Positions 24,346 through 56,150 of a stretch of 64,000 nt of DNA are shown in pieces (position 1 is the stretch's first letter; every line of letters starts with the position of its first letter). The notes under the pieces were generated by a model. The model worked only from the letters and a program-made list of their open reading frames with translations, was not told the origin of the DNA and did no database searches. This DNA comes from Halichondria panicea (Eukaryota; Porifera; Demospongiae; Suberitida; Halichondriidae): NCBI RefSeq assembly GCF_963675165.1, contig NC_087381.1, positions 4,465,378-4,529,377 on the forward strand, in the 5' to 3' direction. Made by a program: the position numbers and the translations under genes.

Positions 24346-24991
24346 GAGGTTATGAAACAAAAGCGCGCGCGCAAAATGTTTGACCAGGCCCCGTTCACGC
24401 CCACTTAATTGAAATTGTAAACGTGCACAAAGTATACTTACAAATCTACTGTCTACTACAGCTAGGTACCTTGTCATGTATACATAATACATGTAAATGG
24501 TATGTGTGGAATGAATGTGTATTTAGTACTTAGTGTGTCCTGGACTTGTGCTCGTGTCAACAGATTCATAGTTCACAGCTTGTAAGTTAACTACATTCAG
24601 TTGCTCATTTAGCCACAGCAACACAAGTGTAGGTTGAGCTAGTTTTTGTTAGTGTTTAGGGGGGTTGCAACCCCTGAAACCCACCCCCTAGATCCGGGCC
24701 TGTCTGGGGTTCAAAATGGATTCTCTTACATGTGGTATTGAGCGCACATGCGCATTACATCCAGGAATAAGGGGTTATAATTATTAAAGTACAGTTGTAA
24801 TTTTGTTTTATCTACATGCTTTTTTTAGGCACCAATTGAACACTGTGTAGGTCGGCACTTATCACCATTCAAATTTCATGGCTGCATGGACTTAGTATAC
24901 ATTTCTATGGCTGTAATCTGAAACACATTCCATAACTGTACACAAGTATCTTTGTCTCTGTTACAGTGATAAACAAGACTTTATAATAATT

Positions 24992-27721: not shown

Positions 27722-28139
27722 TGTACAGTACTGTAATAGATGTCTAGCTACATTATTAGGTCTACCATACCCTGAGGGTCAAATTATGCTAGTTTAGCGC
27801 CCTATTATTCAATTGTGCTAGTTCCTAAAGTCTCCAAAAATTAAGTTGTCAAGCCCTACACTCTGTTTCTAGTCTCGCGGACCCAGACCCTGAATATATC
27901 GGCTGGTCCACGAGACTACTCTGTCTCAACCCCTAGCCCCCCCCCCCCCCCTATACACCAACGTCACACAACATTTATAAGATTACAGCTGGACACCAAA
28001 TATAATTATAGGTTGATTCCATGCAGATCAAATTAAAAGAAATTGTGTCTGTACTAATACTCTGCCTCACATCATCACAAGGATACTGTCACTAATAAAT
28101 GACACAATGTCATAGATAAATCAATTTTAGCTATGTGCA

Positions 28140-29290
28140 GTTACGTATAATTATAAGGTATTTCATTAAACTTTCAAATGAATAATCCGGGATACAGTTC
28201 AAGACAGCTCTGCACAATTTCATCTCTTCCGGGATCCGGCCAGTCAACAGTAAATCTTGATCTAGATATTTTCGGAAACACTTTTGCTGCACATAATCTC
28301 TTGGGCAATCAATATTCAGAAACTTGAACAACTTGAAGACAGTCTCTTTCAGGATGCATACCAACCCATGGTTGTGAATTTCCAAAAGCCGATCTCCAGA
28401 AGTTATTGACCGAGAAATGTTAGCAACAGAATCAGCTAAAGATAAAAAAGGTCTACAGCTGATGAACGTTGTTTGACTGAGATCTGGGCCATGCAAGTCT
28501 GTGCTCTCCGTAGTCTGTATTCTGTAAAGCACCATTGTAGATAATTATGACGTCAAATGGATTACGTACGCAGTGAATGATTAGGATGGAAGCAAACTAA
28601 TTCAGTCGGTTGTACGCAAGTTTGAAGTCCTTCTGTACATCCTGGACGTTCCACCACCATTTTTGTCTCCAATTACATCAATCTGCTCTCTGTACCGTCC
28701 TTGCCAAATTCTTCTATTGTGATATTGTAATTTTTGATGTACTAAACACGTTGAAACTGTTGCATAGAGTTCATTGAAAAGATCAGCCTTCACATCGATA
28801 GATTTTGTAGATCTAATCGTGAGAGCCAGCCAAGAATGTTAAGCACATGTGCCACCACGACATTCGGATGAACACCCAACTATACTGTGACCACTTTTTG
28901 GGGTAGCCGATGAACAGTTTCACTCCTGAGACAACTTCAGTAGTGGCGTAGGAAGCAATTTCGGGGGGGGGGCTCTATAGTGTGGAAAAAAGTGTGCCTA
29001 TCTACGGAGTGCAGCTTGATTCTACTTAATAACCTGGAGAGATCTGATGGGGGGCTCAAGCCCCTGGAGCCCCCCTTCCTACGCCACTGTTTAGGGGGTA
29101 GGGGGGTATATTTAGCATTCCCTGAGTAAATCTTATGTTTCTGATTGTTGTGTACGTTAGCACTACTGTTTCCAAAGTAAGAGTTTTTGCTAACCACCAC
29201 GCTGCCACAAATTACATATCGTTCACTGAGTAGTATTACAGCTACAATGGTAATAAATAATTATTTGAGACACTGAACTTTCTATGAAGT
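28140..29290 (-). pseudogene. Sulfotransferase pseudogene C
   Basis: Inverted relative to copy B. The alignable sequence runs from the start region (about 29285) to SFESLMKY (about 28150) but is broken into three open pieces by frameshifts and small deletions (for example around 28540-28600, 28730-28800 and 28860-28920). A foreign 150-bp element sits in the N-terminal part. The P-loop region and most catalytic-fold residues cannot be read in one frame. Its partner in the second segment is pseudogene G with similar lesions, so it was dead before the segment duplicated. Confidence 0.85.
28943..29094. mobile_element. About 150-bp insertion with AGTGGCGTAGGAAG ends in pseudogene C
   Basis: The left end AGTGGCGTAGGAAG is answered by CTTCCTACGCCACT on the right; the interior is G/C-rich with runs of G. 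It interrupts sequence that is continuous in copies B and F. The same insertion is present in pseudogene G (36613-36773). Confidence 0.75.
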
Positions 29291-30622: not shown

Positions 30623-31606
30623 TTACATTAAACTTTCAAATGAATAACCCTTAAAAAAGGGATACAGTTCAAGACGGCTCTGCACCATTTTCTTCATCTC
30701 TTCCGGCCAGTCCATAGTAAATCTTGATCTTGATATTTTCGGAAACACTTTTGCTGCACACAATTTTAGATAATCTCTTGGGCAATCAATGTTCAGAAAT
30801 TGGCACAACTTGAAGACCCTATCTTCAGGATGAGATACCAACTCATGGTTGTGAATTTCCAAAAGCCGATTTCCAGAAGTTATTGACTGAGAAATGTTAG
30901 CAACAGAATCAGCTAAAGAGAAAAAAAGGTCTGCAGCTGATGAAAGTTGTTGGACGTCTTTGTATACATGACGTGACTTTCTGGAAATGGGGACCAAGTC
31001 TTTTTGAATTCTTGTGCTCTGTATTCTGTAAAGCACCATTGTAGAGATGACGTCAAATGGATTACGTACGCAGTGAATGAAACGTATTAGGATGGAAGCA
31101 AACTGATGCAGTCGGTTGTACGCAAGTTTGAAGTCCTTAGCATTATCTCTGTACATCCTGGACGTTCCACCACCATTTTTGTCTCCAATTACATCAATCC
31201 GCTCTCTGTACCGTCCTTGCCAACTGTTTTCTATCGTGAGATTGTATCCTTTATTGTTATCGCTTCTTTTTCCATCACTAAACACATTGTTGAAACTGTT
31301 TGCATAGAGTTCATTGAAGAGATCAGCCTTCACTTCTGAATTTTGTAGATCTAATCGTGAGAGCCAACGAAGAACGTTAAGCTCATGTGCCACCACGACA
31401 TTCGGATAGAGTTCATTGAAGAGATCAGCCTTCACTTCTGAATTTTGTAGATCTAATCGTGAGAGCCAACGAAGAACGTTAAGCTCATGTGCCACCACGA
31501 CATTCGGATGAGCATCCAGCAGACTCCCAACTATACTGTGACCACTCCTGAAGTATCCTATGAATAACAAACAGTTTCACTCCTGAGACAACTTCAGGGG
31601 GTATAG
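30623..31606 (-). pseudogene. Sulfotransferase copy D, 5' truncated and frameshifted, with internal duplication
   Basis: An open frame of 315 residues runs from MLFIGYFRSGHS to SFESLM. A 93-bp (31-codon) tandem duplication repeats PNVVVAHELNVLRWLSRLDL plus the following NSEVKADLFNELY. Upstream, a 2-bp loss relative to copy B at about 31566 breaks the frame into the conserved KLFV stretch, and the gene stops at about 31611, where a fragment in opposite orientation begins. The membrane anchor is therefore missing. The P-loop reads YFRSGHS and RNPFDVIST is intact. I treat it as a pseudogene, though a soluble product cannot be excluded. Confidence 0.75.
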
Positions 31607-32149: not shown

Positions 32150-33360
32150 CTTGTACGTAACTGCACATAATTATAGCTAAAATTAACGAGTGTTGCAAGC
32201 GTGCACTTGCTAATGCCTCTCGCCATGTTTTAGCTTTCGCTCAAAAGTATTAGAGTGTTATAGAAGAGGTAAATAATTTGCAATGTGCTTTAATTGTTTC
32301 ACAAGAAAGGGGTGTCCACAATTAATAGTGCATGGCCTGTAGCCAAACAGTGGGAGCAAACCTTTGTCGAAGGCATAGTCAGTGGTCTGTGAGATAAGCA
32401 GAATTCAACCACAGAAAGTAGTATCTATAACAAGCAGTCTAAAAAGAGTTATCAGAAAAGGTTGGTTTGTGGCTTACCAGGACCTCAACAAAGAAGACGA
32501 GTGTTGTAAGCGTGCGCTTGCTAATGCCTCTCGCCATGTTTTTGCTTTTGCTCAAAAGATTAGAGTGTTATAGAAGAGGTAAATAATTTGCAATGTGCTT
32601 TGATTGTTTTACAAGAAAGGGGTGTCCATGCACAGTTAATAGTGCATACTGATCGTCATGGCCTGTGCAGATCCAGCCAAAAATGTATAGGGAGGTTATG
32701 AAACAAAAGCGCACACCCAAAATGTTTGACCAGGCCCCCGTTCACGCCCACTTAATTGAAATTGATATCATAGTAAACGTGCACAAAGTATACTTACAAA
32801 TCTACTGTCTACTACAGCTAGGTACCTTGTCATGTATACATAATACATGTGAATGGTGCATGTGTGTGGAATGAAAATTATTGTGTATTTACAACTTAGT
32901 GTGTCCTGGACTTGTGCTCGTGTCAACAGATTCATAGTTCACAGCTTGTAAGTTAACTACATTCAGTTGCTCATTAGCCACAAGCAACACACTTAACCTA
33001 CACTTGTAGGTTGAGCTAGTTTTTGTTAGTGTTTAGGGGGGTTGCAACCCCTGAAACCCACCCCCTAGATCCGGGCCTGTCTGGGGTTCAAAATGGATTA
33101 TCTTACACGTGGTATTGAGCGCACATGCGCATTACATCCAGGAATAAGGGGTTATAATTATTAAAGTACAGTTGTAATTTTGTTTTATCTACATGCTTTT
33201 TTTAGACACCAATTGAACACTGTGTAGGTCGGCACTTATCACCATTCAAATTTCATGACTTTAGTATACATTTCTATGGCTGTAATCTGAAACACATTCC
33301 ATAACTGTACACAAGTATCTTTGTCTCTGTTACAGTGATAAACAAGACTTTGTAATAATT
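32150..33360. other. Intergenic region between fragment E and gene F
   Basis: Near-copy of 23790-24991: the two GCCTCTCGCCATG blocks, then an A/T-rich upstream region of the gene ending in the CTGTTACAG splice-like signal. Small open frames here are not supported. Confidence 0.6.
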
Positions 33361-34422
33361 ATGAAAGTTCAGTGTCTCAAATATAGTTTATTAACTACAT
33401 GTATATCCGTTGTAGCGGTAATACTACTCAGTGAACGATATTATACATTAGTAATCTGTGGCAGCGTAGTGGTTACCTACTTTGGAAACAGTAGTGTTAA
33501 CGTACACAACAATCAGATTTACTCAGGGAATGCTATTCTCCTACCCCCTGAAGTTGTCTCAGGAGTGAAACTGTTTGTTCTATTCATCGGCTATCCCAGA
33601 AGTGGTCACAGTATTGTTGGGAGTCTGCTGGATGCTCATCCGAATGTCGTGGTCGCACATGAGCTTAACGTTCTTCGTTGGCTCTCACGATTAGATCTAC
33701 AAAATTCAGAAGTGAAGGCTGATCTCTTCAATAAACTGTATGCAAACAGTTTCAACAATGTGTTTAGTGATGGAACAAGAAGCAATAACAAAAAAGGATA
33801 CAATCTCACGATAGAAAACAGTTGGCAAGGACGGTACAGAGAGCGAATTGATGTAATTGGAGACAAAAGGGGTGGTGGAACGTCCAGGATGTACAGAGAT
33901 AATGCTAAGGACTTCAAACTTGCGTACAACCGACTGCATCAGTTTGCTTCCATCCCAATACGTTTCATTCACTGTGTACGTAATCCATTTGACGTCATAT
34001 CTACAATGGTGCTTTACAGTATACAGAAAAAAAGTAATCAAAAAGACTTGGTCCCCATTTCCAGAAAGTCACGTCATGTATACAAAGATGTCAAACAACT
34101 TTCATCAGCTGCAGACAATTTTTTCTCTTTAGCTGATTCTGTTGCTAACATTTCTCGGTCAATAACTTCTGGAGATCGGCTTTTGGAAATTCACAACCAT
34201 GAGTTGGTATCTCATCCTGAAGATACTGTCTTCAAGTTGTGCCAATTTCTGAACATTGATTGCCCAAGAGATCATCTAAAATTGTGTGCAGCAAAAGTGT
34301 TTCCGAAAATATCAAAATCAAGATTTACTGTGGACTGGCCGGAAGAGATGAAGAAAATTGTGCAGAGCCGTCTTGAACTGTATCCCTTTTTTAAGGGTTA
34401 TTCATTTGAAAGTTTAATGTAG
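33361..34422 (+). CDS. Sulfotransferase family type II membrane protein, copy F (353 residues)
   Basis: Close duplicate of copy B, same length and same start. Signal anchor at residues 9-41, P-loop YPRSGHS at 78-84 and RNPFDVIST at 207-215. It differs from B by scattered substitutions, for example GDKRGGGTSRMYRDN where B has GSKNGGGMSRMYRHN, LNVLRW for LHVFRW, and YSIQ for YRIQ. No frame damage is seen, so it is probably functional. An ATTAAA at about 34561 matches the one after B. The acceptor substrate cannot be told from sequence. Confidence 0.85.
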   Translation: MKVQCLKYSLLTTCISVVAVILLSERYYTLVICGSVVVTYFGNSSVNVHNNQIYSGNAILLPPEVVSGVKLFVLFIGYPRSGHSIVGSLLDAHPNVVVAHELNVLRWLSRLDLQNSEVKADLFNKLYANSFNNVFSDGTRSNNKKGYNLTIENSWQGRYRERIDVIGDKRGGGTSRMYRDNAKDFKLAYNRLHQFASIPIRFIHCVRNPFDVISTMVLYSIQKKSNQKDLVPISRKSRHVYKDVKQLSSAADNFFSLADSVANISRSITSGDRLLEIHNHELVSHPEDTVFKLCQFLNIDCPRDHLKLCAAKVFPKISKSRFTVDWPEEMKKIVQSRLELYPFFKGYSFESLM

Positions 34423-37348: not shown

Positions 37349-38413
37349 TTACATTAAACTTTCAAATGAATAACCCTTAAAAAAGGGATACAGTTCAAGA
37401 CGGCTCTGCACAATTTTCTTCATCTCTTCCGGCCAGTCCACAGTAAATCTTGATCTTGATATTTTCGGAAACACTTTTGCTGCACACAATTTTAGATAAT
37501 CTCTTGGGCAATCAATGTTCAGAAATTGGCACAACTTGAAGACAGTATCTTCTGGATGAGATACCAACTCATGGTTGTGAATTTCCAAAAGCCGATCTCC
37601 AGAAGTTATTGACTGAGAAATGTTAGCAACAGAATCAGCTAAAGAGAAAAAAAGGTCTGCAGCTGATGAAAGTTGTTGGACGTCTTTGTATACATGACGT
37701 GACTTTCTGGAAATGGGGACCAAGTCTTTTTGAATTCTTGTGCTCTGTATTCTGTAAAGCACCATTGTAGAGATAACGTCAAATGGATTACGTACGCAGT
37801 GAATGAAACGTATTGGGATGGAAGCAAACTGATGCAGTCGGTTGTACGCAAGTTTGAAGTCCTTAGCATTATCTCTGTACATCCTGGACGTTCCACCACC
37901 ATTTTTGTCTCCAATTACATCAATCCGCTCTCTGTACCGTCCTTGCCAACTGTTTTCTATCGTGAGATTGTATCCTTTATTGTTATCGCTTCTTTTTCCA
38001 TCACTAAACACATTGTTAAAACTGTTTGCATAGAGTTCATTGAAGAGATCAGCCTTCACTTCTGAATTTTGTAGATCTAATCGTGAGAGCCAACGAAGAA
38101 CGTTTAGCTCATGTGCCACCACGACATTCGGATGAGCATCCAGCAGACTCCCAACTATACTGTGACCACTCCTGAAGTATCCTATGAATACGACAAACTT
38201 TTTTACTCCAGAAATGACTTCAAGGGATAAGGGAGAATAATGGGCTTTTTCTACTTGATTTATTATTGAATTGCTCTTCGCTTCGAGTGTCTGAATATTG
38301 TTCTCTTTTATGCTAATAGAGGAGTCAGTTGGGTCAGTTCGATAATATTTTAATATCAAAGCGACAGTTAGAATTAAAATAATGATGAGCGATATCTTTG
38401 GGCACGTTCTCAT
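37349..38413 (-). CDS. Sulfotransferase family type II membrane protein, copy H (354 residues), with a distinct N-terminus
   Basis: Single-exon gene. From residue 76 on it is nearly the same as copies B and F: P-loop GYFRSGHS around 78-85, RNPFDVIST, and the same C-terminal 140 residues. Residues 1-70 are different: a signal anchor ISLIIILILTVALILKYY at 7-24 and a polar stem with SISIKENN. The stem still ends LEVISGVKKFV where B has PEVVSGVKLFV. The P-loop proline of B/F is phenylalanine here and in copy D. The sharp change of similarity suggests conversion of the catalytic part or replacement of the 5' end. The frame is intact, so it is probably expressed. Confidence 0.83.
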   Translation of the reverse strand: MRTCPKISLIIILILTVALILKYYRTDPTDSSISIKENNIQTLEAKSNSIINQVEKAHYSPLSLEVISGVKKFVVFIGYFRSGHSIVGSLLDAHPNVVVAHELNVLRWLSRLDLQNSEVKADLFNELYANSFNNVFSDGKRSDNNKGYNLTIENSWQGRYRERIDVIGDKNGGGTSRMYRDNAKDFKLAYNRLHQFASIPIRFIHCVRNPFDVISTMVLYRIQSTRIQKDLVPISRKSRHVYKDVQQLSSAADLFFSLADSVANISQSITSGDRLLEIHNHELVSHPEDTVFKLCQFLNIDCPRDYLKLCAAKVFPKISRSRFTVDWPEEMKKIVQSRLELYPFFKGYSFESLM

Positions 38414-38545
38414 CTTAATTCATCGGTTTAGACAGATCTAAGTCTAGTATCTAAATCTGCTAGATACTCCTTCTGCTGGCTAGCCACACATCTATCTCAA
38501 CGTACCTCAGTCTCGATGTTCGCTCTCTAGCTCTCTACTCAGGAT

Positions 38546-40077: not shown

Positions 40078-41303
40078 TGGGTACTGCTTATAGTTATCAG
40101 TGACAATAATACCCACCAGAAAATTCTACCCGAAACTGCAAAAAGGACATTGAATTTGAAGTTACAGAATTATACCCCCCACAAAAACGTTAAACTCGCA
40201 AGCCGTCACTGTTGCACGCGAACAGTGACGGCTTGCGAGTCTACAAAAACGTACCCTCCAGAAAATCATACCCATGCACACATGAAAACAGACCCTCGAG
40301 AAGATCATGAGATGTACCTGTGCACAAAATCATAACCTTGCGAGCACAAAAAATTGTACCCTCCAAACGTCGCACCACCCCCCCTCCTAGTCTTGTAAGC
40401 CACGCCCCTTAACGGAAGGAAGAGTCTAGAGTTGTCCCAGTGGAATTTTACCTATGGAATTTAGCTATCAACACGCCAATATGTGAGTGTACATGTGGTT
40501 TTAAGATATGAGTGGGTGGACAATGACGTTTCAGAAATGATTGGTAGCGCCAACACTGGCACAGAGAATAACTCCTTCCTCCTGTGAAGGGGCATGGTTT
40601 GCAAGACTAGGGGGTGGTAGTGTAACGATTTGGAGGTTATGATTTTGGTATTGTTTCTGGAGGGTCTGTTTTGTGTGCACAGATATGATTTTCTGGAGGG
40701 TCTGTTTTTGTGTGTGCGCAGGTATGCCTCTGCCGTACGTATAGCGGGTTATTTTTGTATATGGTGGAAATTTTTGTAGATTTCGTCATAATTATAATCA
40801 AAAATGGAATTATTCTACCGCAATAGATTTGATGTAGATCTAGTGATCCTCCTGCATGCATGGCCTGCGAAAGAAACAATTAATGTAAAATGTCAATTTA
40901 AAGGTTAAAATCCTGCATGCATGGATCTATTCTCTTAAGCTGGTTTAAATTGTCTGCAGTACGTGTGATAGCTCAACCGATTTTTGTTGTGTGCATATAT
41001 AAAGGCGTGCGAGGGTGAACTCAGTTTTACACGTATAATTATAATTGATTGCATATGGCCATGGGTCGGGCGTTTTAATTGATGATCTTACTGCATACTA
41101 CACATGCAATGACATATGGTACACATACATCATGCCAGCATAATGCATTATATACGGTAATAATTGAACAGTCATTCTGTGACTTAATTCTGATGAGAAA
41201 TTGGACTAAATTCAATTGACGATTTACACACAGTAGCATAAGAAAATTAATGTGCAGTGTAATACACTGAGTGAGCAAACTAGGACGTGATTATAAGCTA
41301 TGG
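40078..41303. other. Intergenic region upstream of the kinase 3' end
   Basis: The stretch around ACCCTCCAGAAAATCATA (40250) is answered by GATTTTCTGGAGGGTCTG (40688), giving a roughly 0.5-kb fold-back. 40870-41060 is a diverged copy of the stretch at 13430-13650 (shared TCTCTTAAGCTGGTT-like and GATAGCTCAAC words). No gene seen. Confidence 0.5.
40191..40242. mobile_element. 52-bp perfect hairpin with flanking direct repeat
   Basis: ACTCGCAAGCCGTCACTGTT and its exact complement enclose a 7-base loop. Extended ends read TAA...CTA. CAAAAACGT flanks it immediately on the left (40182-40190) and, after ACTA, on the right (ACAAAAACGT at 40243-40252). Fits the TAG...CTA insertion pattern; it could alternatively be an RNA hairpin or terminator-like structure. 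Confidence 0.6.
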
Positions 41304-44300
41304 CTAACTATCTACCCGTGGATGTTCAGAGCAAATTAAACTGTTTGCCCTGTGAGGGCTTGTGGGGGGGAGGTTATTCGGGAGGGGGGGCTTTGTCTTT
41401 TGTGGGGTGGGTACAGAGTGGATGGGATCATTGATGGGATCCAGGAGGTAGTAAATGTGACCCAAAGGACCAGCCTTCTCTTGCAGATCCTCCTGAGGGG
41501 ACAAGAAATGAGACGATGAATAAGAGATGGTTAAATTAGTTACAGCAACATGTTTATACTGAATGCAGCTTGTTTTATATTGAGCCCTCTCACAGACCAC
41601 CATGCAGAACCGAGTACATTATGCTTAAAAATAAATTATACATGCACGTGATTGTAAACTCCATTGCTATCCAAGTTTTCCACATTCATAGCAAACAACA
41701 GACATAATTATAATACACTTACATCTTGTGAGTTGAAGGTATCCTTCACGGCCCTTGCAGGGGGGGTTGCAGCAGCTGCTTCGGTCTGGGCATGCTCAGT
41801 AACAACATCGTGGGCCACGGCAGAGTGGCTTGAACCTAAGCAATGTGGTGGGCACGAAACATTGTTACAGTAGTAGACATGCATGTACATGTACATGTAC
41901 ATATACACTCCAGGTACAAGTATGTTGTAGTAAAACACTTTCTCGATCTAAAACAGACAGCTACAGCATAATTATGTAAGTTGATGAGAGCACAGTAGAT
42001 GTATGCATGCATGGCCATACAAATACAATACATGCTCGGAATGTTCTTCTCACCAGTGCTACTAGTGAGCTCTCTCCTTGGACTGGCAGGGGAGCTACCC
42101 ACCAAACTTTTCCGTGGAAACTTGGGACTGACTTTTGGAGGTGTGCGGTGCGAGGGTGAAGCACTAGGACTGCTCTGAGAAGGTGAGGGGTTTTCCTCTG
42201 CGTTCGAAGAGGCCGGCTCGGTGACTTGTAACAGACACTCTGTCAAAGATGTGGAAATCATAGTGTAAAACAAATCATGTATAATTGTAGAGTTCTTTGA
42301 CTACCATAGTGCTAGAAAAAATAGTTTTGGCCAATTTTAAAGCTCCAAAAACATTATGCTTTATGCGATTAACTTATTTCCTCGATTAAACGCCACGATT
42401 GTACAGGCCTTGAACTAATTGTGCGATACAATACGATACGATACGATACGATAGCCGCTGGCATAAAATAATAGCATTATAGTTACATTTGTATCACACA
42501 TTAATTTCTAGCACTACGATATCTATCTATACGTGTACATCAACATGGTATAATAACAAGCTACAATTTCTAGCAAACGAGTTACGTACAATGAATGGAA
42601 CCTCTGACATTCGACTTCAAAAGTTTTGTACATGGTTACGAAAGAAACTAGATTTGGAAATAATTAAAGCACTATAGCTGTTTTTGCAAAGAGATCTATC
42701 AAATACGGAGGGGCCTTTCTTGGAAGGTCATTAATCGGAGATTCACAACACATAACACACACATGTACATGTATGAAGGTGTACAGCACATGTACTAACC
42801 ATTCTCTTGTTGACCTGATGACTTCTGCTCCTTGTCTTGTTGAGTAGTGTTTGATGTCTGATTGGTCGTTGGAGATGAACTGATGACACTGTTCCTGTCA
42901 TCACATACCAGAGTGCCTTCTTTCACCTGTCGAACCAAATCCTCCTGCAAAAAAGGTGGTGTGTGTGTGTGTGTGTTAAAATTGCTGTGTAGTGTACCCC
43001 TAGATACAATGTACATGCTGTATTTATTATTTTGAAACGGAAATGCTCTGAATTCCAACCACTGTACAGGAGAACTCTTTTACACATGAATATGTACATT
43101 ACAACTTTGGGGAAATATATTTGTGGCAGAGGTGGCTTTTGTTAAGGGGTTACAACAAACTGTTAGTTTGGGACTGGATACCTAGACTACTGCTGTTCAA
43201 AGAAGCTCACCATTTGATCTCTGAGTTGAGAGAAAGTTGGTCTCTCCTCAGGTTGGTGTTGGGTACAGTCCAAAACCATCTCATAGCTACAGTGAATACA
43301 CACAATTATGAGATACAGTAGCTATAGAGAGAAGGGACAGTACATGTACGTACGTTATATATAGACAGTATTCATGTGTGGATATTATTCGTTCTCTTTG
43401 GCAAAAGACCAGTTTAATTAATTAACTAATAAAAATAATATTATAATTAATTATATAATTATCATTAACTAATAATGTTATTAATTGCATTAATATTCGT
43501 GTCCATTGTTGCTACATGTGTACAATGTATACTCTTCATTACTGCAGACCACGCATGGAACAAGGGGCTTTACACACACACACACACACTTACACTCGTC
43601 CGGGACAAGGCTTTGGTCTGGACAGTTTAAGGCCCCTCTCCTCGATCTGTTCCAGCAATTCCCTGTTCTCGACACCCGGGTATGGAGAACGTCCCAGTGA
43701 CATAATCTCCCAGACCAGCACACCATAGCTCCTGTGATGAGTGTGTGTGTGAGGGGGAGGCCGGGGCTTATGTGCAGTGGGTGTGTGTAGCAGTCATTGT
43801 ATGTATAACTATATACTACAATATTTTGCAAATAAGCCAATTAAATCAGCAGAAAATTAGACATTTTGCGATCAGTCAAGGATCGCTGATGTCATTCGAA
43901 TACTGAGCACTTATACTGCAGTAAATACCGTACATGTATTACTAGCAGGTGAAAAACCTTTGCGAATGAGCCAAATCAGCAGAAAATTTGACCCTTTGCG
44001 ATCTAACTATTGCGTTCTGGCAAGGATCGTGTGTATTTACTTAATATTTGCGGATTTATTGTTGCGAATTGATCGACCATCGCAAAGTTCGCAAATGTTT
44101 GATGCTCGCAAAACATTCTAGTAATACGGTAAACACGTTGTTACAGTATATAGCCAGTATATAGCAGTGCACAAAACAATAAAACAAGGTTGCAACTGCG
44201 GTAAAGGGTGGTCAGAGTAAGAACTACTTACCACACATCAGACTTGGTCGTGAATATAAAGTACATGAGACTCTCCAGTGCCATCCACTTGGCCGGAAGT

Positions 44301-46673
44301 GGACGTGGTTTGGATCCTTGGGTCTTGTACATGTCCGAATAGAGATGTCTACAGAAACATGGGCTCATTATTAAAAGCATAATAATAGTGGCACTGTACA
44401 ACTGACCTTGAGAGTCCAAAGTCTGCGACCTTTGTCAGAAGGTTCTTGTTCTCATCCTCCCTCACCATAATGTTGCGAGCAGCTAGGTCACGATGGACAC
44501 AGTTACTGCAGTATACATTTATGAGCAACTGTAACCACATGTGAATTGTAGTTACTGCGTGTGATAAAAAGGGGTTAGTAAGCTAGGCATGATCAACATG
44601 TTTTCACATCTGGTGCCAGTTCATTTGTTAAAACAACAGTCTTTATACAGAGGGTGAAGTACATGTACGGCCCTATTCCCACACAAACTTACAGTACGTT
44701 GGCGAGATAGTCCATAGCATCAGCCACCTGGTAGGCAATGTCCAGCTGTGTCAGGAGAGGCATGAATGGACGAGAGTCTTTGAGCACGCCCAGTAGGTCA
44801 CCATGGCTCATGTACTCCTCTACCAGCAGCAAGGGGTAGTCCCTGCAATTAAGGGAAAATAGGTATAGACTATGAACGTCAATAAGGAGCGGAATGGGCC
44901 TGCATAGGAACGATGCTAAGGAAATACTTTGTGGGTATACTGTTCCTACAATGGCCACACTATAGTGACCTTCGTAAAGAGATCACCTCTCTTTTACATG
45001 TAAGACCCACATAGTGGTACTGTCCTCAATGTTCACACTATAATTGATACTAACTCACAATGTGCACACAGCGATGAGTTTGACAATTCTGGGATGATCC
45101 ACTTTGGACATCTCCTTTGCCTCTCTCAAGAAGTCCTCCATCTGTTGACTGTGATGACCGTGGCGAGCTATGAAATCACTCACTACGTGTGTGTGTGTGT
45201 GTGTGTGTGAGTGAGTGAGTGTGGTACATGTACCATGTACTTACGAGGCACATACATGTACATACATGTACAGTCTATATGTACAGTCTACATGTATATG
45301 CTTCACCAGTGTGCAAAGAGATTCTACAGTATAAACCCCTCGAGATAACCAGTCTGTTGAATGTACATTTATCACCGCTATATATTTTTACACGTACACC
45401 ACATGCAATAGCAAGAGCACACTCAGAACTACAGAATGTCACGTTGAAATCAGGGCACTAAATGCAAATCCTGTTTTACAGGCTAAGACCATGCAGCTCT
45501 ATTAATTTTTCAAAGGTTTCTACTAGCCATAGCATGACAAACCCACACTCACGTCTGAGCTGTTTGACGGCTACCTCCATTGTCTTGTTCCCATGGCCTG
45601 GCAGTCCAGTCGCCTCCGCTAGGAATACCTGTAGGTAATACACGTGTATACATAGTTGTGTGCTACAGTGTGTAATACGGTATACCCTAACTATTATATC
45701 GACTCATAAAGCTAGATTAGACACATTGTACGTACATCTCCGAATGCTCCTTCTCCGATCATCTGTTTGTGGTCGAGGTTCTTGCGTGGGACCTGCAGGT
45801 GGCGGAGACAGTCCTGGATCGGCTTAAACAACGGCGACATCGGAGAGAGCAGACCCGGCTGTGAGGATGTGTGGCGTGTGATGTTGAGTGTGCGTGGGTG
45901 CATGGTGAAAATAAAATAACCATTTAGATCCCACTTTTCATTAAGACCTTGCCTCAGGTAAAGCACAGCTAATATAGTATGAGAAGATGAGGGACTGGTT
46001 GCTCTGAAGTTCCCTTATTCGGACACTGTACTGTACACATTGTATGTGCATGTAAACATACTGTACTTTTCTGACCTGGTGAGGAGCATCGTCGAATTCG
46101 TCTGGTGATGGAGAGCGTGGTTCAGGACACGTACTCACCTGTGTCATGTTCGCACTGTTGTCGATACGCCTCAGGCCATATCTGTGCAGGGAGGAATGAA
46201 AGACAGTAAAATTGAATACAGTGTACAAACATGAACTACAGCCACGTAAAAATTAATTTTGTAAGAGCACAGAACACAACTGTGAAATACATGTTATATG
46301 ATATACACTGTACATGCAGTACATGTACCTTGAAATGTACAAGCAAACTAGAGTAACATACTGCATGTATACACATGTAAACCCCTTCTATAATGGACAC
46401 CATTTTGGGCAGCAATTGAAGTCTTATTCTGTACACAAAATGCTCATTAGGGAACTCTCCCCCTCCTCTCCACACACACCCACCTTGCGGCTGTTCTAAA
46501 ATTGACTAGTTTCATATCGTGCAGGTCCAACAAGAAGGGCATGGGGGAGGGAAGACAAAGAGTAAGCTCCGCCCACTGGGAGCCACTATCGTACATGTCC
46601 TCTATCTGGATGTTGGTTTCCCTCTCAAATGGATGCCAAAGATCCTTGTCAACATTGCCCCACTCCCAGAAAG

Positions 46674-46722
<49 letters not shown>

Positions 46723-49700
46723 GCGTGTGCGTGTGTGTGTTTAAGTTTAATACAATTACATGGACATGTATACAGAGGAACTGGTATTACAAGCTTAAAT
46801 TATATTATATGATAATACACGTACACCACCTGCAACTGGATTGTACATGCATGTCTGTACTACTGTCATATAATTATAGCTGCAGTGATACATTGTAACA
46901 TTGTTTATAATACAGCAATGTATACTGAAAGTAGATTGTTGTAAAACACTCAACGTAATGTTTTCGTATCTTCCAAACACATACTGCAGAAACTCACTGG
47001 TAGGTCCATCATCTTGCTGTGAGTGACCTCGGGCCTATCCTCAATAAACACAGTCCTCTTTATACGATGGGTCACCTGAAAAGGGGGGCAAAGATGACAA
47101 CCAGTCAAACCATTGACTACATGTATTGTATAATTATAAGAAGTCATAGACTGCGCATGCGTACATAACTTAAACACACACACCACGGTAAGCTTTATTG
47201 TACATAATTATATAGAAATGTACGTACATGTATATACATTACATAATATAGTACAATACATGCATGTACATGTACAGTACACCAGTGCTCAAAACTATTG
47301 GTCTCGATATTAATTTATATAATATGTACAATGTAATCATGTTGACACAGTCAATCCCCACAAACAACCGTCCCCCACAAACAACGGTGTGCAGCTATAT
47401 AAACACACTGTCTAACTGTGTACACAAATACCAAATACATTATTTCCACTCATAATACGCCACGGCACGTGTAGAGTTCAATGATAACTTTGAAGTTTGT
47501 ACATGTACCAGAAGCAGAGCCCTACGTTCACGTCTAATTATTTTACACTACCACTTTCAAGTTTACTACACATGATGACGGTGCACAGTCAGGACTGCAT
47601 CCAGGATTTTGGATCAGGGGGGGGGCGAATTGGGCAATTTAAAAATGTAGGAGGGGCGAAGTCATCAGAATTATAGCAGTACAATCGCCCCCCCCCCTCA
47701 ATGCAGCCGTGACAGTAATATTAAAGTACCCCTCGTATTTAAGTACCTACAGTTACAAACTGTATATTATTTATATATATTTTTATGTACATGCAACTGT
47801 TCGAATAAGGACCGCTACGTGTTTCAAAACAAGACTCTTCTATTACGATATGAAACAACCGGCTATCTATAGACAATATTACTTACTTTTGTGCGTGGGT
47901 GTGATCGTGTCATGTTGTTAAGGTTATAGTGGAAGGCCATCTGAGCTTCACCCAGGTAGAACGAGTTATCACTCTCTGAGTAGTGCGCCTCAATTCTGAA
48001 TGAGTCACCGTCTGGGAGTGCATTCCATAGTCCACCATCGTAGTATTCCCAAATCACCTGACACGTGGGAGGGCATATACATGTAGTCAGGAACTAATCA
48101 CATGTAGTACAGACGTTTATTTAACAATATACTAACCAAATTTATTGCATGTACATTTATTACACGTACATATATAATTATACATAATTATTATGCACAA
48201 TGTGGAATTATGTACAATTAAGGTACAGGAATGTATGTTATTATGCATGCATGCATATACAGCAAATTAGAGTGTACCTTTTCTCTCTTGTATTGTATGC
48301 TGAGTAGCTCACAGAGCACCTTCAGCCAGGTGGTCACATCAACACTACAATACCGTGGAGTTGATAACACAGGTACATGTACATAAAGTGTCAGTCTCGA
48401 TACCAGCTAGTACATGTGTATACCTGGCAGCTATAATAATTGTACACTACAGTAGTTACATGCCGGTGTGCAAAAATCAATCTTACTCTTTGTCACAGTG
48501 TAGCAATAGCCGCTTGCTGCCTTTGCACTTTAGACTGATAGCATACGGGTGTTTAGGGTGGTCGATCACCTTGGCAACCTCTCTAATTACGTGTACTTCA
48601 ATTTTGTCTTTCTTCAATACTTTTGTCTCCTTCCTGTTGTCCTGGTAAAAAGAGATGGCCGGTTTGGCTGATGACTGATGAAGGACAGCCCACCCTCTAC
48701 CAAGTTCTTTATCCGGCTGTGTGTGTGTGTGTGTACGGTGTGAGTGCATGCATGTGGGCATAAATACACGTACAATGTACAGGAGGCTTAATTTGTTGTA
48801 TGGGGCTCATTGCTTTATTGTTTCAAATTGAGCCAATGGGTCGAGACCTACATGTACATGTACATTACCTTGTGGATCGATCGAGGCTTTAATTGATATC
48901 GAAGCCACAGTAATTCAGGCTTTATATGCATGTGTGTATTCATGTGCTTATATGCACATACAAACAACTAGAGGGAAACTCAGCACAGGAAGTGGGTGCA
49001 TGTGAATACAGTAAACAAGCATACTCCCCATCCAACAGTAGACACACCATGGAGCCCATTATACGTCAGGGGGTAGTGCAATCAAAACAATTAAGTAAAC
49101 ACAACAGTTGTCGTAAATAGCAACCATTCTAAGGGCTATTTGTTTACAGTGTATGGTCTAGCTACAATAAATAGAAGGACCTCCAGAGATTTGTAAAGCA
49201 TCATAGAGAGACGTACAGTATTGAGTTGGACTCACTGCCAGTTTGGTGCTGAAGAGGCCCGTCTTCTTGCCTTTGAAGAGGATCAGCCAACCCTCTTTCA
49301 GTACCACCTTGCCGTCTAAGGTTGCTATAGAACCAGAGAAAAAGTCAGAGTAATTTCTGTATTCATAATACTCTCACCAAAGACAAAAGACACACACACA
49401 TGTATGTTAATTTGGATCGAGTGAACAGAAACATTTAGTACACAATATAAACAACACATGCTGTCAGACTTCACACGCTGTCAGACTTCAAATATGGGCT
49501 TTACAGGCAGAACAAGCGAATTAGTCACACTCAATTCCTACTGTATGAACATGCAAGCTCATCATTGGCACATTGTGTAACGGGAATGTGAACAATGCCA
49601 CAGGCCATTACGACTAATCATGTTAGTATTACCAGGAGTTGTAATCATTGTAACATCATTATGGCTACAGTACAAAAATGTGCGTCTATCGTATTCACTT

Positions 49701-52700
49701 TTCTAGAGACACGGATATTGATTATATTGTACATGTAGTGTACAGAGTACATGGTCTACAAAACAGCTAGTTACCTAATACACGTACAAATGTACATATG
49801 CATGCAGGGATAGTGTTTATAATTTATACACGTATATATATATATACGCAAATGTACACACAAGTCCATTAGAAGAAAGTGTGGTTTTTTGTGTGTGGAC
49901 TTTTACCCTAGTACAGTAGCGGTCAAAATAAAGTACCTGTACCGTTTACGTAGTGCGTCCGTAGTACGCTGGTACGTTGCAAAATAAACGCTAAAAATAC
50001 GCTCAAGATACGCTATGTACCGTTGCGTTTTTTTTCTAATCAACCGTTGTTAAATTTTTCTTTCGGCCACACCCATGCAGCTCTGCACGCAGCTAGCTAG
50101 CTAGATTTTTTGCAGCAGTTAGCTGTTAGATATTATAGCTAGCTAGCTAGCGTTTTCTAACCTTGTAGAACAGAGATAGGACTCTATAGAGACTGCAGAC
50201 ATCCTTTTTGATGAGAAGGTTAAAGAACTTGTGAATGGTGCGTTTTATGTCTTTGTTGTAGATCTAGAGCTAGACTTACAGCTACAATGTAGACATAGCC
50301 ATAGCATAGCTAAGTAGCTAGACTAGCTACAATACTCGAGATGACTAGCTCTTTGTTCGTTTTCTAAAACTTTTCGGCAAACGTACTTGCAACGTGCAAC
50401 GGTAATTAGCAACGGTACGGTAAATTCAACGGTTTTGATACGGTGTCAAAACGGAAACGCTTTGAACGTACTACGGACGTACTACGGACGTACTACGTAA
50501 ACGGAACGGGTACTTTATTTTGACCGCTACTGTACTTAGACACCTGTGTTCTCAGAAAGACTGAACAAGAACTATTAAACTGTAATACGTTCTCAAAATT
50601 GAGGAAGAAGCTTATAAATTCATCGTACCACATTCTGTTGCAATTAATACTTTTTGGCAAAACAACTACATGTAGTTGCAATTACGTACGTACATGTAGA
50701 TTTGAATTACATTGTTAAACAATTTCACAGTGCACCCATAAAACCATCTTGTACATAATTATGTGTATAGTATACGCATGTAATAAATATATGACACCAA
50801 GGTGCATGTATTAAATATCAACCACTGTCAGCAAAAGTTATAATAGTAGATGCATGTACACCACAACATAGCACACACACACCACGAACACATGTCGTGT
50901 CATTGTTGCCAAGCGTGTGGCTTTGTTTAGCACTAAATGAGTGGGAGGAACCCAGCCACAGCCCTGTTACTATGACAACATGCAAACACACAAACAGTCA
51001 CCACACTGGTTAGAAATCAGTTTTGTATGTGTTAATTATAATGTTACCATGTAGCATAAATTTGCACAGCACAATTTAACCCTGTACAAGCTCCAATGAA
51101 ATTGTGGCGGTTAATTGAGGAAATAATAAATAAAAAATCGCATGAAACGCATAATTTTATGCTCGCACATATTTCTAGCTAACTACGGTTAAATGAATTT
51201 TTAATTGGGTATACATTAATTTTTTGATATTGAAAATTATGGGGTGGTGTGTTTAGATTAAGAGACAATTCCTGATAGTCAACAGTGAAGTTTTCCCAAA
51301 TCTAGTCGGTTTTTTTTCTATAGCTACATGTACATCCATGTACATTATTTTAAAACTCAAAAAAGAAATGGTGGAGGCCGGGGTGTTCAAAGTCACTTGA
51401 GAGACTTGCTTTACGATAGATGACATACTTGCATCTGTGCTCAAATTTCAAGCCAATCATAACAGACACAAGAAATGAGCATTACTAAATTCCACACAGA
51501 GGGCCCCCATGTCTGAGAGTATAGACTATAATTATTCTGACCCATTGCCACACTCTGCTGACGCTATACTCTTCCCTGTTAGCTTAGGTCTTGTACTTCA
51601 GTTGCTAGGAAACACGCACACCATTGAAATGTATTGAGTAATTGCCCATTAAGTAAAAAAAATGATTGAACTCTCTTAAGTAAGGAAATAATTTGTGCAA
51701 GTACTAATAATCTTACAGTAATACAAACACCATTGTTTACAGTGGCACAACTACGTAAATAAATTAATGGATATAGACATACTCTAATAATGCATGTTAA
51801 ATACTCGATCCACACAATTAATACATGTACATGGATTACTGATACTCATAGGAAGGGCCACATTAATTCTGTACGTTAAAACTTCAACAAAAGATACATC
51901 TCACGCACACATACATACTGCATGTATGTGAAGCTGATTAATTCATAAAAATTTTCCTGCTCAGACAATAATATTATACTTCGACGTTTAAAAGCTTCTT
52001 TTAAGAGTCACTATTGCCATGATTAACACGGCAAGGCACATCATAAAACTGAAACTGGTACAATACCAAATATCAAAACAACCATCAAAGCAATAATTAT
52101 GTATAGATCGATACACAATGATTTGTCTATGTTACTTGCAATAGTATTTCGGACACTTCTTTTCAACAAAGCGAGAAACACAAATGATTACTATAACAAG
52201 ATTGAGTATCTATGTATAATTATAGTGACTGTAGTCCACAAAAGAAGTAGCTCTGAAGTGGTTACTACAAAAGAGATGGCATGTACTATTCATGAGGTGG
52301 TTAGAGCATAGAAGAGGGATTGGAAACGGAAGTGATTCACGTGATGTTTTACAATGAAGTCTACGTAGTGGCTCTGGGACCATCCGTGTATCTCCTTATA
52401 ACTCCTGCAAAAGCCCGGGAAACTTATTGTGTCCAAAGCATACATCTCAGAGCTACCCCCATTACTGAATCACATGCCCCCTGATAGTAGGTATCAATTG
52501 GAAACTTATAATCTCGATTGTCGTGAAGTAGCTAGAGGTACACAGAGCGCTTTTTTATGCTTGTGTTCCTATAGTACCTTTGATATAGCTAAGGCTTTGT
52601 AACTAAATAGTGTCCTGTGTCCCAAATGGCCTCAAGTATTAGAGAAAGTTGATGTTTAGCAGCAGAACTGCTCGTGGACTTCTTACAGAGAGCAAAACAA

Positions 52701-54222
52701 TTCTCATGAATTATTCATGTTTAGCCCTTGTGTTAAAAAGTAAGCCTCGATTAAAACCACGGAGATACATGGATGGTACTTCGAGGGTACTTCCGTTTCC
52801 AATCCCTCTTCTACTCTATTTATGGTTAGAGTGAGTGTGCACAAATTCCTTGCATCCTTCTGTGTACAATCCCTCTGTGTACACACACAGCCTGCATCTA
52901 AGGATTACTTCTCTCACTCAGCTTACATCATTGACCGCCCTGAAGACACCATCTCTCTAGTGAGACCACTGTATCACCTCTCTATCAATTGAGACTATAC
53001 CCATTACTGTCACTACAATTATTGCAATACTCTCAATTGTCACAGTTCCAAAAAGACAAATTTGTTCACACTGCACACATACTGTTGCTGATGAATGCAA
53101 TACCTAGACACGCCTAGTAGTCTCATCATAATTTTATTAGGAAATGTTGTGCAGTGTGCACTTAAGACACAATGGGAACATGAATACACACCTTCTATTC
53201 GAGAAGAACAACACTACATTTATTTGATTGCATACAGTCTATAAATTACTGTACACATGTAGAAACTTCAAGAGGGTTGCAACAATTCGTTTAGTAGTAG
53301 GGTAACAAATAATTATTTATCCTGCTCATGTTACAAGAACAATAAAGCAGCAATTAATTATATAAAGGTTCACTAACGTATTTAGCACAATCTTTGATTA
53401 CTTGACAAACCACATACCAATACATTCATAACAATGCCCGAATTATAGTTTATGGCTACAATCAATACAAATTGACACACCATAAAAAGCCACATCAAAC
53501 AAAGGATGCACATGATCTTACAACTACTACTCTGCCAAACGGAAATAAATGCTTTGGCTCACATGCATAGAAAAATTTAGAGCATACTTTATTCAGGTAA
53601 TGAATAGTACATGCATGAAACTTCAAAATGGATAGTAACAAGCTCGGGCACAGCTGGCTAGACAATTGACACAAACTCAAGTAGGCAATGCATACGGTAC
53701 AGTGAGTAATTTGAACTAGTTACATACTGCAGTAATAGGATACATGTACGTACATGTACCATGCCATTAAAACTATACATTTCCTGTGTTTTCATTGAAA
53801 ATAGATTCTGATCCCTTTCCGACTAACAAGCTCTGCTTACAATACTAGAGAAAAATAGAAACCAATATTTCAGAAACTGGCGTATAACTATGGGAAAGAG
53901 CAGATAATCACACCCCAAAACTTACGAAACACATACGACAACATTAACACTTAGGGGGCCGGGGGACATCTACAAAACATCAGTCGGATACACAGTATCG
54001 AATGTAGGCGTGGTAAAAAAGGGGATAGATAATAGGCATCGCTATAATAATTGTTAAGAAGTGTTTCCACATCCAGTGCATGCCATGTGTATCTCCAACA
54101 TGATCCAAAATATTATAGAAAACTCCATCTAAAGATCTAACCTGAGTTTAGCTACATCATCATTGCTGGAACTGTGATTTCTAGAGCAGTGCATAGAAAC
54201 CTGATATCTACTCACCTGACAT
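41304..54222 (-). CDS. Non-receptor-type tyrosine kinase with PH and two WWE domains (20 exons, 824 residues)
   Basis: Exons in order: 54216-54222, 49236-49324, 48487-48716, 48278-48344, 47887-48057, 46998-47075, 46484-46674, 46076-46181, 45736-45858, 45553-45628, 45059-45182, 44693-44842, 44407-44505, 44232-44348, 43594-43731, 43211-43286, 42800-42944, 42054-42239, 41723-41835, 41304-41492. All phases join. Residues 9-131 form a PH domain ([21 protein letters not shown]). WWE 1 is about 132-197 ([16 protein letters not shown]) and WWE 2 about 215-286 ([22 protein letters not shown]). The kinase spans 343-614: GEGAFG 348-353, Lys376, probable Glu400, HRDLAARN 475-482, DFG 499-501, activation-loop Tyr507 and Tyr511, KWMALESL 524-531. 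Residues 615-824 are Ser/Pro/Gln-rich with PPLPNNLPP. All catalytic residues are present. PH suggests membrane lipid binding and WWE suggests (ADP-ribose) or ubiquitin-linked partners, by family knowledge. No signal or transmembrane segment. The 7-nt first exon and the exon 8 donor are the least certain parts. Confidence 0.85.
42417..42455. repeat. CGATA short tandem repeat
   Basis: ATACGATACGATACGATACG run within a kinase-gene intron. Confidence 0.8.
43927..44131. mobile_element. About 205-bp inverted-repeat element in a kinase intron
   Basis: TACCGTACATGTATTACTAG at the left and CTAGTAATACGGTA at the right; interior with GCAGAAAATTTGACC and TTTGCGATC words that also occur just upstream at 43840-43885. 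Non-autonomous, class unknown. Confidence 0.5.
46677..46740. repeat. GT microsatellite
   Basis: About 64 bp of TG/CG dinucleotides. On the minus strand it is the CA tract running straight into the CAG acceptor of the kinase exon that starts at 46674. Confidence 0.9.
49914..50532. mobile_element. 619-bp Tc1/mariner-like miniature element
   Basis: Ends CAGTAGCGGTCAAAATAAAG and CTTTATTTTGACCGCTACTG, with TA on both sides (49912-49913, 50533-50534). Longer inverted arms include TACGTAGTGCGTCCGTAGTA-like sequence. No transposase. Confidence 0.8.
52306..52822. mobile_element. About 517-bp inverted-repeat element
   Basis: TAGAAGAGGGATTGGAAACG at the left and CGTTTCCAATCCCTCTTCTA at the right; a second matching block lies near 52370 and 52765 (CCATCCGTGTATCTCC against GGAGATACATGGATGG). 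It again begins TAG and ends CTA, but I see no clear 9-bp duplication. Confidence 0.65.
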
Positions 54223-54534
54223 GATCTTTGGTAACTTAGAGCAAGGCCAAAGTTGTGATACACTCTCCGGTATAGTCCTGTACGCTGCTTGTTAGGTCTA
54301 GTACGTCTATGGTAGTACCTGGCTTGATATCAGTGTTCAGTCTAGTTTATGCTCTCATTTCCGTTTATTTCCGTATAGATTCTAATTATTAACATTGCCG
54401 GAATGCACATCATTATCAGGTTCCTCCGATCTGATTGGTCAGTTCTGCAAGAATAAATTTAAACAAGCCAAAAAAGCTAAAAGTTACAAATTTCAAAGAA
54501 GTGCGTAGCAACATCGTGAACTTAGTTTGCAGAG
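54223..54534. promoter_or_regulatory. Divergent promoter of the PH-WWE kinase and KIF23
   Basis: 312 bp between opposed start codons. Toward KIF23 it holds an inverted CCAAT box (ATTGG at 54434-54438) and TTCAAA at 54492-54497, the complement of the CHR consensus TTTGAA, 38 bp before the KIF23 ATG. CCAAT plus CHR is the known pattern of G2/M genes controlled by NF-Y and the DREAM/MMB complexes. No TATA box. Confidence 0.55.
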
Positions 54535-56150
54535 ATGAAAAGCTCTAAAGGTAAAACACCAGCCAACGGGTCAAGACCTATCAAGAAAGGTTGTCCAACG
54601 CCGGGCAAGCCACCTAAAGCTTCAAGACCAAAGGATCCTGTTGAAGTCAGTTGCTATACTTCTGTAGCTCATCAGTACAGTGTGTAGCTAGTATCGCCAC
54701 AGGCTTATAAATGCTTGCTCTGTACACACACCACAGAGTGTTGAATATTAAAACACTGATCACCACGGTACACTGTTACATACTACACTACTGTGATAAA
54801 TATTACACTACATTCTCTAAATAGGTGTACTGTCGAGTGCGACCATTAAAAGATGATGAACTGGAGTCGTGTGTGGAGGTTCCTGAAGACACACTGCTCA
54901 AAGTCACGCCCCCTGAGTGCTCTATCGCTTTCAAGAATGGGCACAGAAATGCTGTGAGTTTAATTCGCAATACTCTTTTACTTGAAATACTTCACGGCTA
55001 AGCTTCCTGATCTCTTAACCGTATCAATGCGCTCTGTATAGTGTTTCCTTTGAAGTTTCATACAGTACTTGTTCATCTAGGTACTATACATGTATGTACG
55101 GACGGTATACATGTACAGTAGTGACGTTTGATATTTTGTTCAGCACGCTCACAAGTTCAAGCATGTGTTCACGGAGGGGACTGATCAAACGGATATCTTT
55201 GACAGACTGGGCTTCCCTCTTGTGGAGGACCTCCTACAGGGAAAGAACGGTATGCCAGTAAAAGTAGTGGAGTAAAAACGAATCACCAAACCTTAGGCCT
55301 TGATCAAAATTACTGAAATGAGGCAGAATAATAACTATTTACATGTACATGCACCTGCGCATGTATCTGTTGTCATTGACAGGCAACCTTATTGATAGCT
55401 AGATCATACGTACGTATACAGTACAGTGAATGTCTACTGTTGTCACCTCATGCAGCTGGGTCACTCTCTATAATAATTATTGCCAGGTTAATGGTCTCAG
55501 AAGTGTCCATAGGAGATGTTTCGATCTAGCTATAAAGTGCATGTCAATGTGCATGTATGTTAGCTGGCCACCTCTTCATTACAGCATTTGTTAGTCAGTG
55601 CAGGGGTGACTGCTAGAGTTAGTCAGTGCAGTGGTGACTGCTAGAGTTAGTCAGTGCAGGGGTGACTGCTAGAGTTAGTCAGTGCAGGGGTGACTGCTAG
55701 AGTTAGTCAGTGCAGGGGTGACTACTGGAGATGTACTGTACCTAGGATAGGCAGATAGTTTGACACATAAGTCGTATATATACATGTACATAAGTCGTAT
55801 ATACACATGTACATGACTTGTGTGGTATGTACTGTCGTACACAGTATATAGTAGTGTGTTGTACACTGGCCCCTGTGTGTAATCTGTAATCTTGTTTCTT
55901 GCTTCCTAGGGCTACTATTTGCCTATGGCATAACCAACTCTGGCAAGACGTACACTATGAACGGGGAACCTGACCAAGCCGGTATTCTACCGAGGAGTCT
56001 AGACATCATTTTCAACAGCATAGCAGACGTCCAAGCTTTCAAGTTTGTGTTTCGCCCTGACAATACTAACGGGTTTGACCTATTCACTGAAGAAGAGGCT
56101 AACACAGAGGCTCAAAAGAGCAAGCCCAAGAAGATCAGTCCTAGAATGAG

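Follow-up and report, generated by a model that had tools for sequence, protein, structure and literature searches.

A probable tyrosine kinase gene with PH and tandem WWE domains in the sponge Halichondria panicea

Are a PH domain, a pair of WWE domains and a tyrosine kinase encoded together in one sponge gene? The question is raised by a stretch of 64,000 nucleotides of Halichondria panicea DNA (contig NC_087381.1, positions 4,465,378 to 4,529,377 of the forward strand), hereafter the window, and coordinates below are those of the window unless another contig is named. It was found that a minus-strand gene, running from 49324 to a stop codon at 41304, consists of 19 exons with an AG at all 19 acceptors and a GT at all 18 donors. 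A preliminary description of this DNA had proposed that the exons are phase-consistent, and indeed all of them connect to a single open frame, which has 800 codons and ends with TAG at 41304. Along the 800 residues, a PH domain is followed by two WWE domains, a tyrosine kinase domain and a tail rich in proline and serine. I give a probability of about 0.6 to the reading that the product is a cytoplasmic tyrosine kinase of this order whose WWE pair may serve as a docking or structural unit without reading ADP-ribose. The exons (A to S) and a candidate first exon are as follows.

50280..50307, minus strand: candidate first coding exon with an ATG and a phase-1 donor of 9.2 bits (no other candidate reaches a donor score of 6)
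49236..49324, minus strand: exon A, start of the PH domain, acceptor in phase 1 (GT-AG splice model; PF00169 on the spliced protein)
48487..48716, minus strand: exon B, body of the PH domain (splice model; Pfam)
48278..48344, minus strand: exon C, C-terminal helix of the PH domain, with the weakest donor of the gene, gtacac (splice model; Pfam; splice-site scores)
47887..48057, minus strand: exon D, most of the first WWE domain, WWE1 (PF02825, 22.9 bits together with exon E; splice model)
46998..47075, minus strand: exon E, final strand of WWE1, then a linker (PF02825; splice model)
46484..46674, minus strand: exon F, most of the second WWE domain, WWE2 (PF02825, six-frame match of 33.9 bits, 35.0 bits with exon G)
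46139..46181, minus strand: exon G, last strand of WWE2 (splice model; splice-site scores)
45736..45858, minus strand: exon H, encoding a linker and then the Gly-rich loop of the kinase; upstream of its acceptor stands an in-frame ATG, at 45903 (splice model; splice-site scores)
45553..45628, minus strand: exon I, kinase, VAVK lysine (splice model; motif scan)
45059..45182, minus strand: exon J, helix C of the kinase, with a second in-frame acceptor 15 bases further in (splice model)
44693..44842, minus strand: exon K, hinge region of the kinase (splice model)
44407..44505, minus strand: exon L, HRDLAARN and DFG of the kinase, with the weakest acceptor of the gene (splice model; splice-site scores; motif scan)
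44232..44348, minus strand: exon M, activation loop of the kinase with two tyrosines and [11 protein letters not shown] (splice model; motif scan)
43594..43731, minus strand: exon N, C-lobe of the kinase (splice model)
43211..43286, minus strand: exon O, end of the kinase, ERPTF (splice model)
42800..42944, minus strand: exon P, tail (splice model)
42054..42239, minus strand: exon Q, Ser/Pro-rich tail (splice model; motif scan)
41723..41835, minus strand: exon R, tail (splice model)
41304..41492, minus strand: exon S, tail with YYLL, a KTKPPLP motif and the stop codon (splice model; motif scan)

How far does the gene extend? Since the acceptor of exon A at 49324 is in phase 1, at least one further coding exon must lie upstream. 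To find a first exon, the interval from 49340 to 54500 was searched for an ATG followed by a phase-1 donor that scores 6 bits or more. The preliminary description had placed the end of the gene at 54222; nothing was found in support of this, as the search revealed no first coding exon near 54222, and ten upstream minus-strand open reading frames (ORFs) of at least 58 amino acids have no Pfam domain above cut-off, one of them having a sub-threshold TraY match. The extent backed by evidence is 41304-49324. Within it, exon G could also end at another in-frame donor, after 46076 (6.0 bits), which would add 21 codons. The PH exons as first joined by eye were rejected: that version gave no PH match, whereas the version joined by GT-AG sites gave 36.7 bits with the PH part alone. 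Thus, the latter PH junctions are supported.

All three domain families named in the preliminary description were recovered when Pfam profiles were run on the spliced protein. PF00169 (PH) matches residues 8-119 at 31.6 bits (cut-off 25.1), PF02825 (WWE) matches two stretches at 47.1 bits (cut-off 21.1), and PF07714 (PK_Tyr) matches residues 319-589 at 273 bits (cut-off 23.1). The two WWE domains are in tandem, as had been claimed, and each stretch exceeds the PF02825 cut-off when scored apart (22.9 bits for WWE1 and 35.0 bits for WWE2). A genome-wide six-frame WWE search lists WWE2 and not WWE1, which is split by an intron. Among solved structures, the best match of WWE2 is DTX1 (E 6e-5, 26.2 bits over the chain). 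In a tree of 18 WWE domains, WWE2 groups with the second WWE domain of DTX1 at a support of 0.82, while WWE1 is unplaced (0.00); such support is too weak to claim a descent of the pair from Deltex. As regards phosphoinositide binding, strand 2 of PH domains usually carries a basic pattern, K/R-x-R-x-F/Y, from which the corresponding GRGWAVL of this protein departs when inspected by eye.

The domain after the WWE pair is probably a protein tyrosine kinase, judging from the PF07714 match and a complete set of catalytic motifs that includes HRDLAARN. The motif scan found [35 protein letters not shown], ERPTF and HRDLAARN, so that every catalytic residue claimed earlier is present: K352, HRD, DFG, Y483 and Y487 (the preliminary numbering is that of the model plus 24, making its Lys376 K352 and its Tyr507/511 Y483/Y487). 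The matches in PDB spread over many families. Among the best 60 of 740, a two-domain EGFR chain comes first, followed by the synthetic Src-Abl ancestor (207.6 bits), ROS (202.1 bits) and RET (201.6 bits), and ROS and RET lead the natural single kinase domains. An activation loop ending in LPxKWM is a feature of receptor kinases, and the earlier remark that this loop looks receptor-like agrees with the lead of ROS and RET. The likeness to ROS and RET is nevertheless confined to the kinase domain; here, no ectodomain or transmembrane segment was seen, and PH and WWE modules would lie inside the cell. Across the 800 residues there is no transmembrane-like stretch, the best 19-residue hydrophobicity mean (1.46) falling inside the kinase. 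The Ser/Pro-rich tail carries an SH3-type KTKPPLP motif and a YYLL motif by motif scan.

A kinase tree of 21 rows was built from the kinase of this gene, 18 kinase loci out of 28 retrieved from elsewhere in the genome (20 were tried; L032 and L035 gave no ORF by the filter) and two outside references, with no Tec sequence among the rows. A long branch (length 1.38) isolates the kinase. It falls with 14 genome kinases on one side of a 97/92 split, and on the other side are four Src-type genome kinases, the Src-Abl ancestor and EGFR. The tree assigns no family, and the placement of the long branch is unsure according to a warning of the program.

Do the PH-WWE-WWE exons and the kinase exons really belong to one gene? 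Splice sites were scored with a weight matrix, each intron with itself left out, and ranked among the GTs and AGs within 41300-54500. The intron in question is GH, which leads from WWE2 to the kinase linker. Its donor (10.2 bits) is the highest of the 18 and in the top 0.4% of GTs, its acceptor (11.1 bits) is the second of the 18 and in the top 1.1% of AGs, and its length of 280 bases is close to the median of the gene, 273 bases. Two abutting genes, or two transcripts, would instead have PH-WWE-WWE end at or near exon G and the kinase start from the ATG at 45903, which is in frame upstream of the exon H acceptor; a read-through of exon G does reach a stop codon at 45941. Such an arrangement would have to fit a 3′ end, a promoter and the space between two genes into the only 235 bases from exon G to that ATG, and it would have to ignore an intron of correct phase and ordinary length. 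The strong donor and acceptor of intron GH therefore make two abutting genes unlikely. Neither AATAAA nor ATTAAA occurs in intron GH, which lends little weight because 11 of the 18 introns, GH included, lack both signals. On the N-terminal side, exon D has no in-frame start codon upstream and needs a preceding exon of matching phase, and exon C fits. It is my judgement that the PH, both WWE and the kinase exons very probably form one gene. Thus, the earlier claim that the exons join a PH domain, tandem WWE domains and a complete tyrosine kinase is supported by the single frame and the scores of intron GH, most likely as one gene.

Does the WWE pair still read ADP-ribose? In solved WWE complexes, as described in PMC11269756, the adenine pairs with a Gln and stacks against an aromatic residue (Trp, or Tyr in the case of RNF146), and the proximal phosphate is held by a Tyr and an Arg. 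An alignment of 18 WWE domains was examined at these four positions: the two of this gene, the 12 others listed for the genome, and four reference domains that belong to three solved proteins (the TRIP12 Gln number was counted from its published Tyr and Arg positions). The four reference domains have W or Y at the aromatic position, then Y, Q and R at the Tyr, Gln and Arg positions, all four residues thus being kept. In the same order, WWE1 has Y, F, R and H, and WWE2 has W, F, L and Y; only the aromatic residue is kept in each. From the Tyr position onward there is no Gln in WWE1 or WWE2, and realignment between that position and the domain end therefore cannot restore it. Among the 12 other WWE domains of the genome, the Gln is kept in nine and all four core residues in seven; the exceptions include L005, which lacks the Tyr, and L046, which stops before the Arg. 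In three others of the 12, L045, L047 and L048 (C2:201296-201484, C2:224571-224750 and C2:2161334-2161552), two of which are near-duplicates, a Glu occupies the position of the adenine-binding Gln.

The preliminary description had proposed that the gene links ADP-ribose or ubiquitin signals to phosphotyrosine signalling. If the pair still read poly- or mono-ADP-ribose, the kinase would be recruited to ADP-ribosylated proteins and the mark would be coupled to tyrosine phosphorylation. The WWE domains of RNF146, HUWE1, TRIP12, DTX1 and DTX2 do bind poly-ADP-ribose (PAR) or ADP-ribose, according to PMC11269756, and the stacking aromatic residue and a pocket Thr are kept in both domains here, with a pocket Asn kept in WWE2. 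However, both domains have replaced the Gln, Tyr and Arg that are kept in 4/4 references and 7/12 genome WWE domains, and no glutamine is left between the Tyr position and the domain end. Since these three residues are lost in both pockets, an ADP-ribose link is unlikely. The ubiquitin side of the proposal fared no better, as the Pfam scan found no RING, HECT or DTC in the protein.

With what known systems can the gene be compared? Its layout had been said to mirror the Tec kinases (PH-SH3-SH2-kinase) with WWE-WWE at the place of SH3-SH2, and this stands as a resemblance of layout only. The N-terminal PH domain, the C-terminal tyrosine kinase, the two small modules between them and the lack of any visible transmembrane-like stretch are shared. 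In contrast to Tec, this protein has WWE-WWE for SH3-SH2, a receptor-like activation loop and a long tail after the kinase, and it lacks a BTK motif. Could it be a divergent Tec-family member in which SH3-SH2 was replaced or missed? The PH and kinase ends would suit this idea, but the Pfam scan showed no SH3 or SH2 at E up to 10 (its filters drop most matches above 0.1), and the protein contains no BTK zinc motif of the commonly given form H-x(10-12)-CC-x(8-11)-C and no FLVRES-type SH2 motif by motif scan. The 97/92 split also sets the kinase apart from the Src-type kinases, the Src-Abl ancestor and EGFR, with the reserve that the branch is long, its placement unsure and Tec absent from that tree. 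Membership in the Tec family was rejected for want of SH3, SH2 and the BTK motif, and this explanation is highly improbable.

The Deltex proteins (DTX1/2/4: WWE-WWE, a Pro-rich PPLP, RING and DTC) share the tandem WWE pair, include the best structural match of WWE2 and have a PPLP as the tail here does. In contrast, the present protein has no RING or DTC, both of its WWE pockets are degraded, and a kinase stands in place of the ligase. Deltex membership was rejected, since Pfam found no RING and no DTC after the WWE pair. The DTC matches of the genome lie on contigs C2 and C8, none in the window, and on C8 a separate Deltex-like locus holds two WWE domains together with DTC matches in a space of about 3 kb. 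As this Deltex-like locus has been kept, the gene studied here would be an additional protein rather than a displaced Deltex. PARP14-like and RNF146-like proteins have the WWE family in common with it. In the genome, those so labelled by a reading of ORFs (L002/L007, L004/L006 and L001), differ by keeping all four pocket residues and by having other partner regions.

How might such a protein work? A single transcript would carry all exons. The PH domain may place the protein at the membrane or at a protein partner, and the WWE pair, having ceased to read ADP-ribose, may act as a protein-docking or structural unit between the PH domain and the kinase. This part is drawn from Deltex, whose WWE pair binds the ankyrin repeats of Notch (PMC8424196 and PMC8961608). 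PH-WWE-WWE would thus be the half of a cytoplasmic kinase that serves targeting and docking. The kinase may be switched on by phosphorylation of Y483/Y487, and KTKPPLP and YYLL in the tail may recruit SH3 and SH2 proteins, if such motifs behave as they generally do. A more far-reaching and only tentative idea is that the gene represents an undescribed class of tyrosine kinases, in which the WWE tandem serves as a regulatory or docking module in place of SH3-SH2 and the pocket has been remodelled (Gln to Arg/Leu, Tyr to Phe, Arg to His/Tyr) to accommodate another ligand or a protein partner, for instance one with ankyrin repeats.

Several points weigh against the reading of the gene as a cytoplasmic PH-WWE-WWE kinase with a docking WWE pair. 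Taken alone, WWE1 is marginal at its 22.9 bits, and it reaches DTX1 among solved structures only at E 0.43, behind chance ribosomal matches. Intron CD, from the PH domain to WWE1, has the weakest donor, in the top 35% of GTs, and intron KL has the weakest acceptor, in the top 52% of AGs. The ATG at 45903 is in an open frame with the kinase, which would permit a kinase-only start. The pocket alignment left out the structures of HUWE1, PARP11, fly Deltex and ZAP, and loss of the pocket is not unique in the genome, as L045, L047 and L048 lack both the Gln and the Tyr. Finally, the docking role of the pair would follow by analogy.

Is the combination found elsewhere? The genome of 131 Mb has at least 156 kinase matches (129 scored of 1749 candidates), another kinase search having scored 84 of 905, and 13 WWE matches are listed, 12 of them outside the window. 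Among the matches listed, the closest WWE and kinase pair on one contig outside the window is about 185 kb apart (C16). When the kinase domain was compared by tblastn with the 12 other WWE loci (eight with flanks of about 1.5 kb and four with a few hundred bases), nothing significant was found, the best E being 4.9; the positives were the WWE2 locus of the gene itself and two control kinase loci, at 1e-18 or better. Thus, neither the matches listed nor the 12 WWE loci checked by tblastn include a second WWE-kinase locus. A protein search of the genome with the PH-WWE-WWE part hit six places, all six in the window. In viral and prokaryotic collections, a 590-residue query from PH to kinase gave 19 and 13 pattern matches, respectively, none confirmed as a relative, which is expected because this is a eukaryotic gene with introns. 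As to the literature, the preliminary description had called the architecture apparently undescribed, and this agrees with a search of open-licence papers, in whose titles and abstracts, as far as listed, no WWE tyrosine kinase was found; the term WWE is also absent from the main text of PMC8662651, PMC5560861 and PMC4054682. A cytoplasmic tyrosine kinase with this domain order was thus not found described there, and orthologues may sit unremarked in sponge databases.

The human proteins in which WWE domains have been described are PARPs, ubiquitin ligases and a phospholipase (PMC11269756). A WWE-bearing kinase would widen the range of WWE proteins, and its degraded pockets would offer a natural test of WWE roles besides holding ADP-ribose. 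It would also add one more, uncommon tyrosine kinase architecture to an early-branching animal lineage.

Some observations on other loci are added. An array of receptor-like tyrosine kinases lies at C10:1701696-1940257 (L020-L030, L033, L036 and L041), with long uninterrupted intracellular frames, some of them nearly identical. Such kinase arrays, together with the cysteine-protease signature of L067 given below, would point to a demosponge. In the window, a probable kinesin-like gene starts at 54828-55272 on the plus strand, head to head with the kinase gene; its ORF 55135-55272 matches PF00225 below the threshold (19.7 bits, where 29.3 are required), and the other ORF of the kinesin region has no match. 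A cluster of closely similar sulfotransferase-like ORFs occurs in both orientations (24917-26053 and 33286-34422 on the plus strand, 30623-31576 and 37349-38419 on the minus strand). Scans of two of them (24920-26053 and 37352-38419) gave PF13469 matches above cut-off, and a sulfotransferase-like remnant at 28131-28544 on the minus strand looks decayed. The stretch 20341-20817 is internally repeated and open on both strands, and has the look of a duplicated repeat, not of a gene. Among 30 cysteine-protease loci of the genome, one (L067) has CGASYAF at the active site, which I take to be a silicatein signature.

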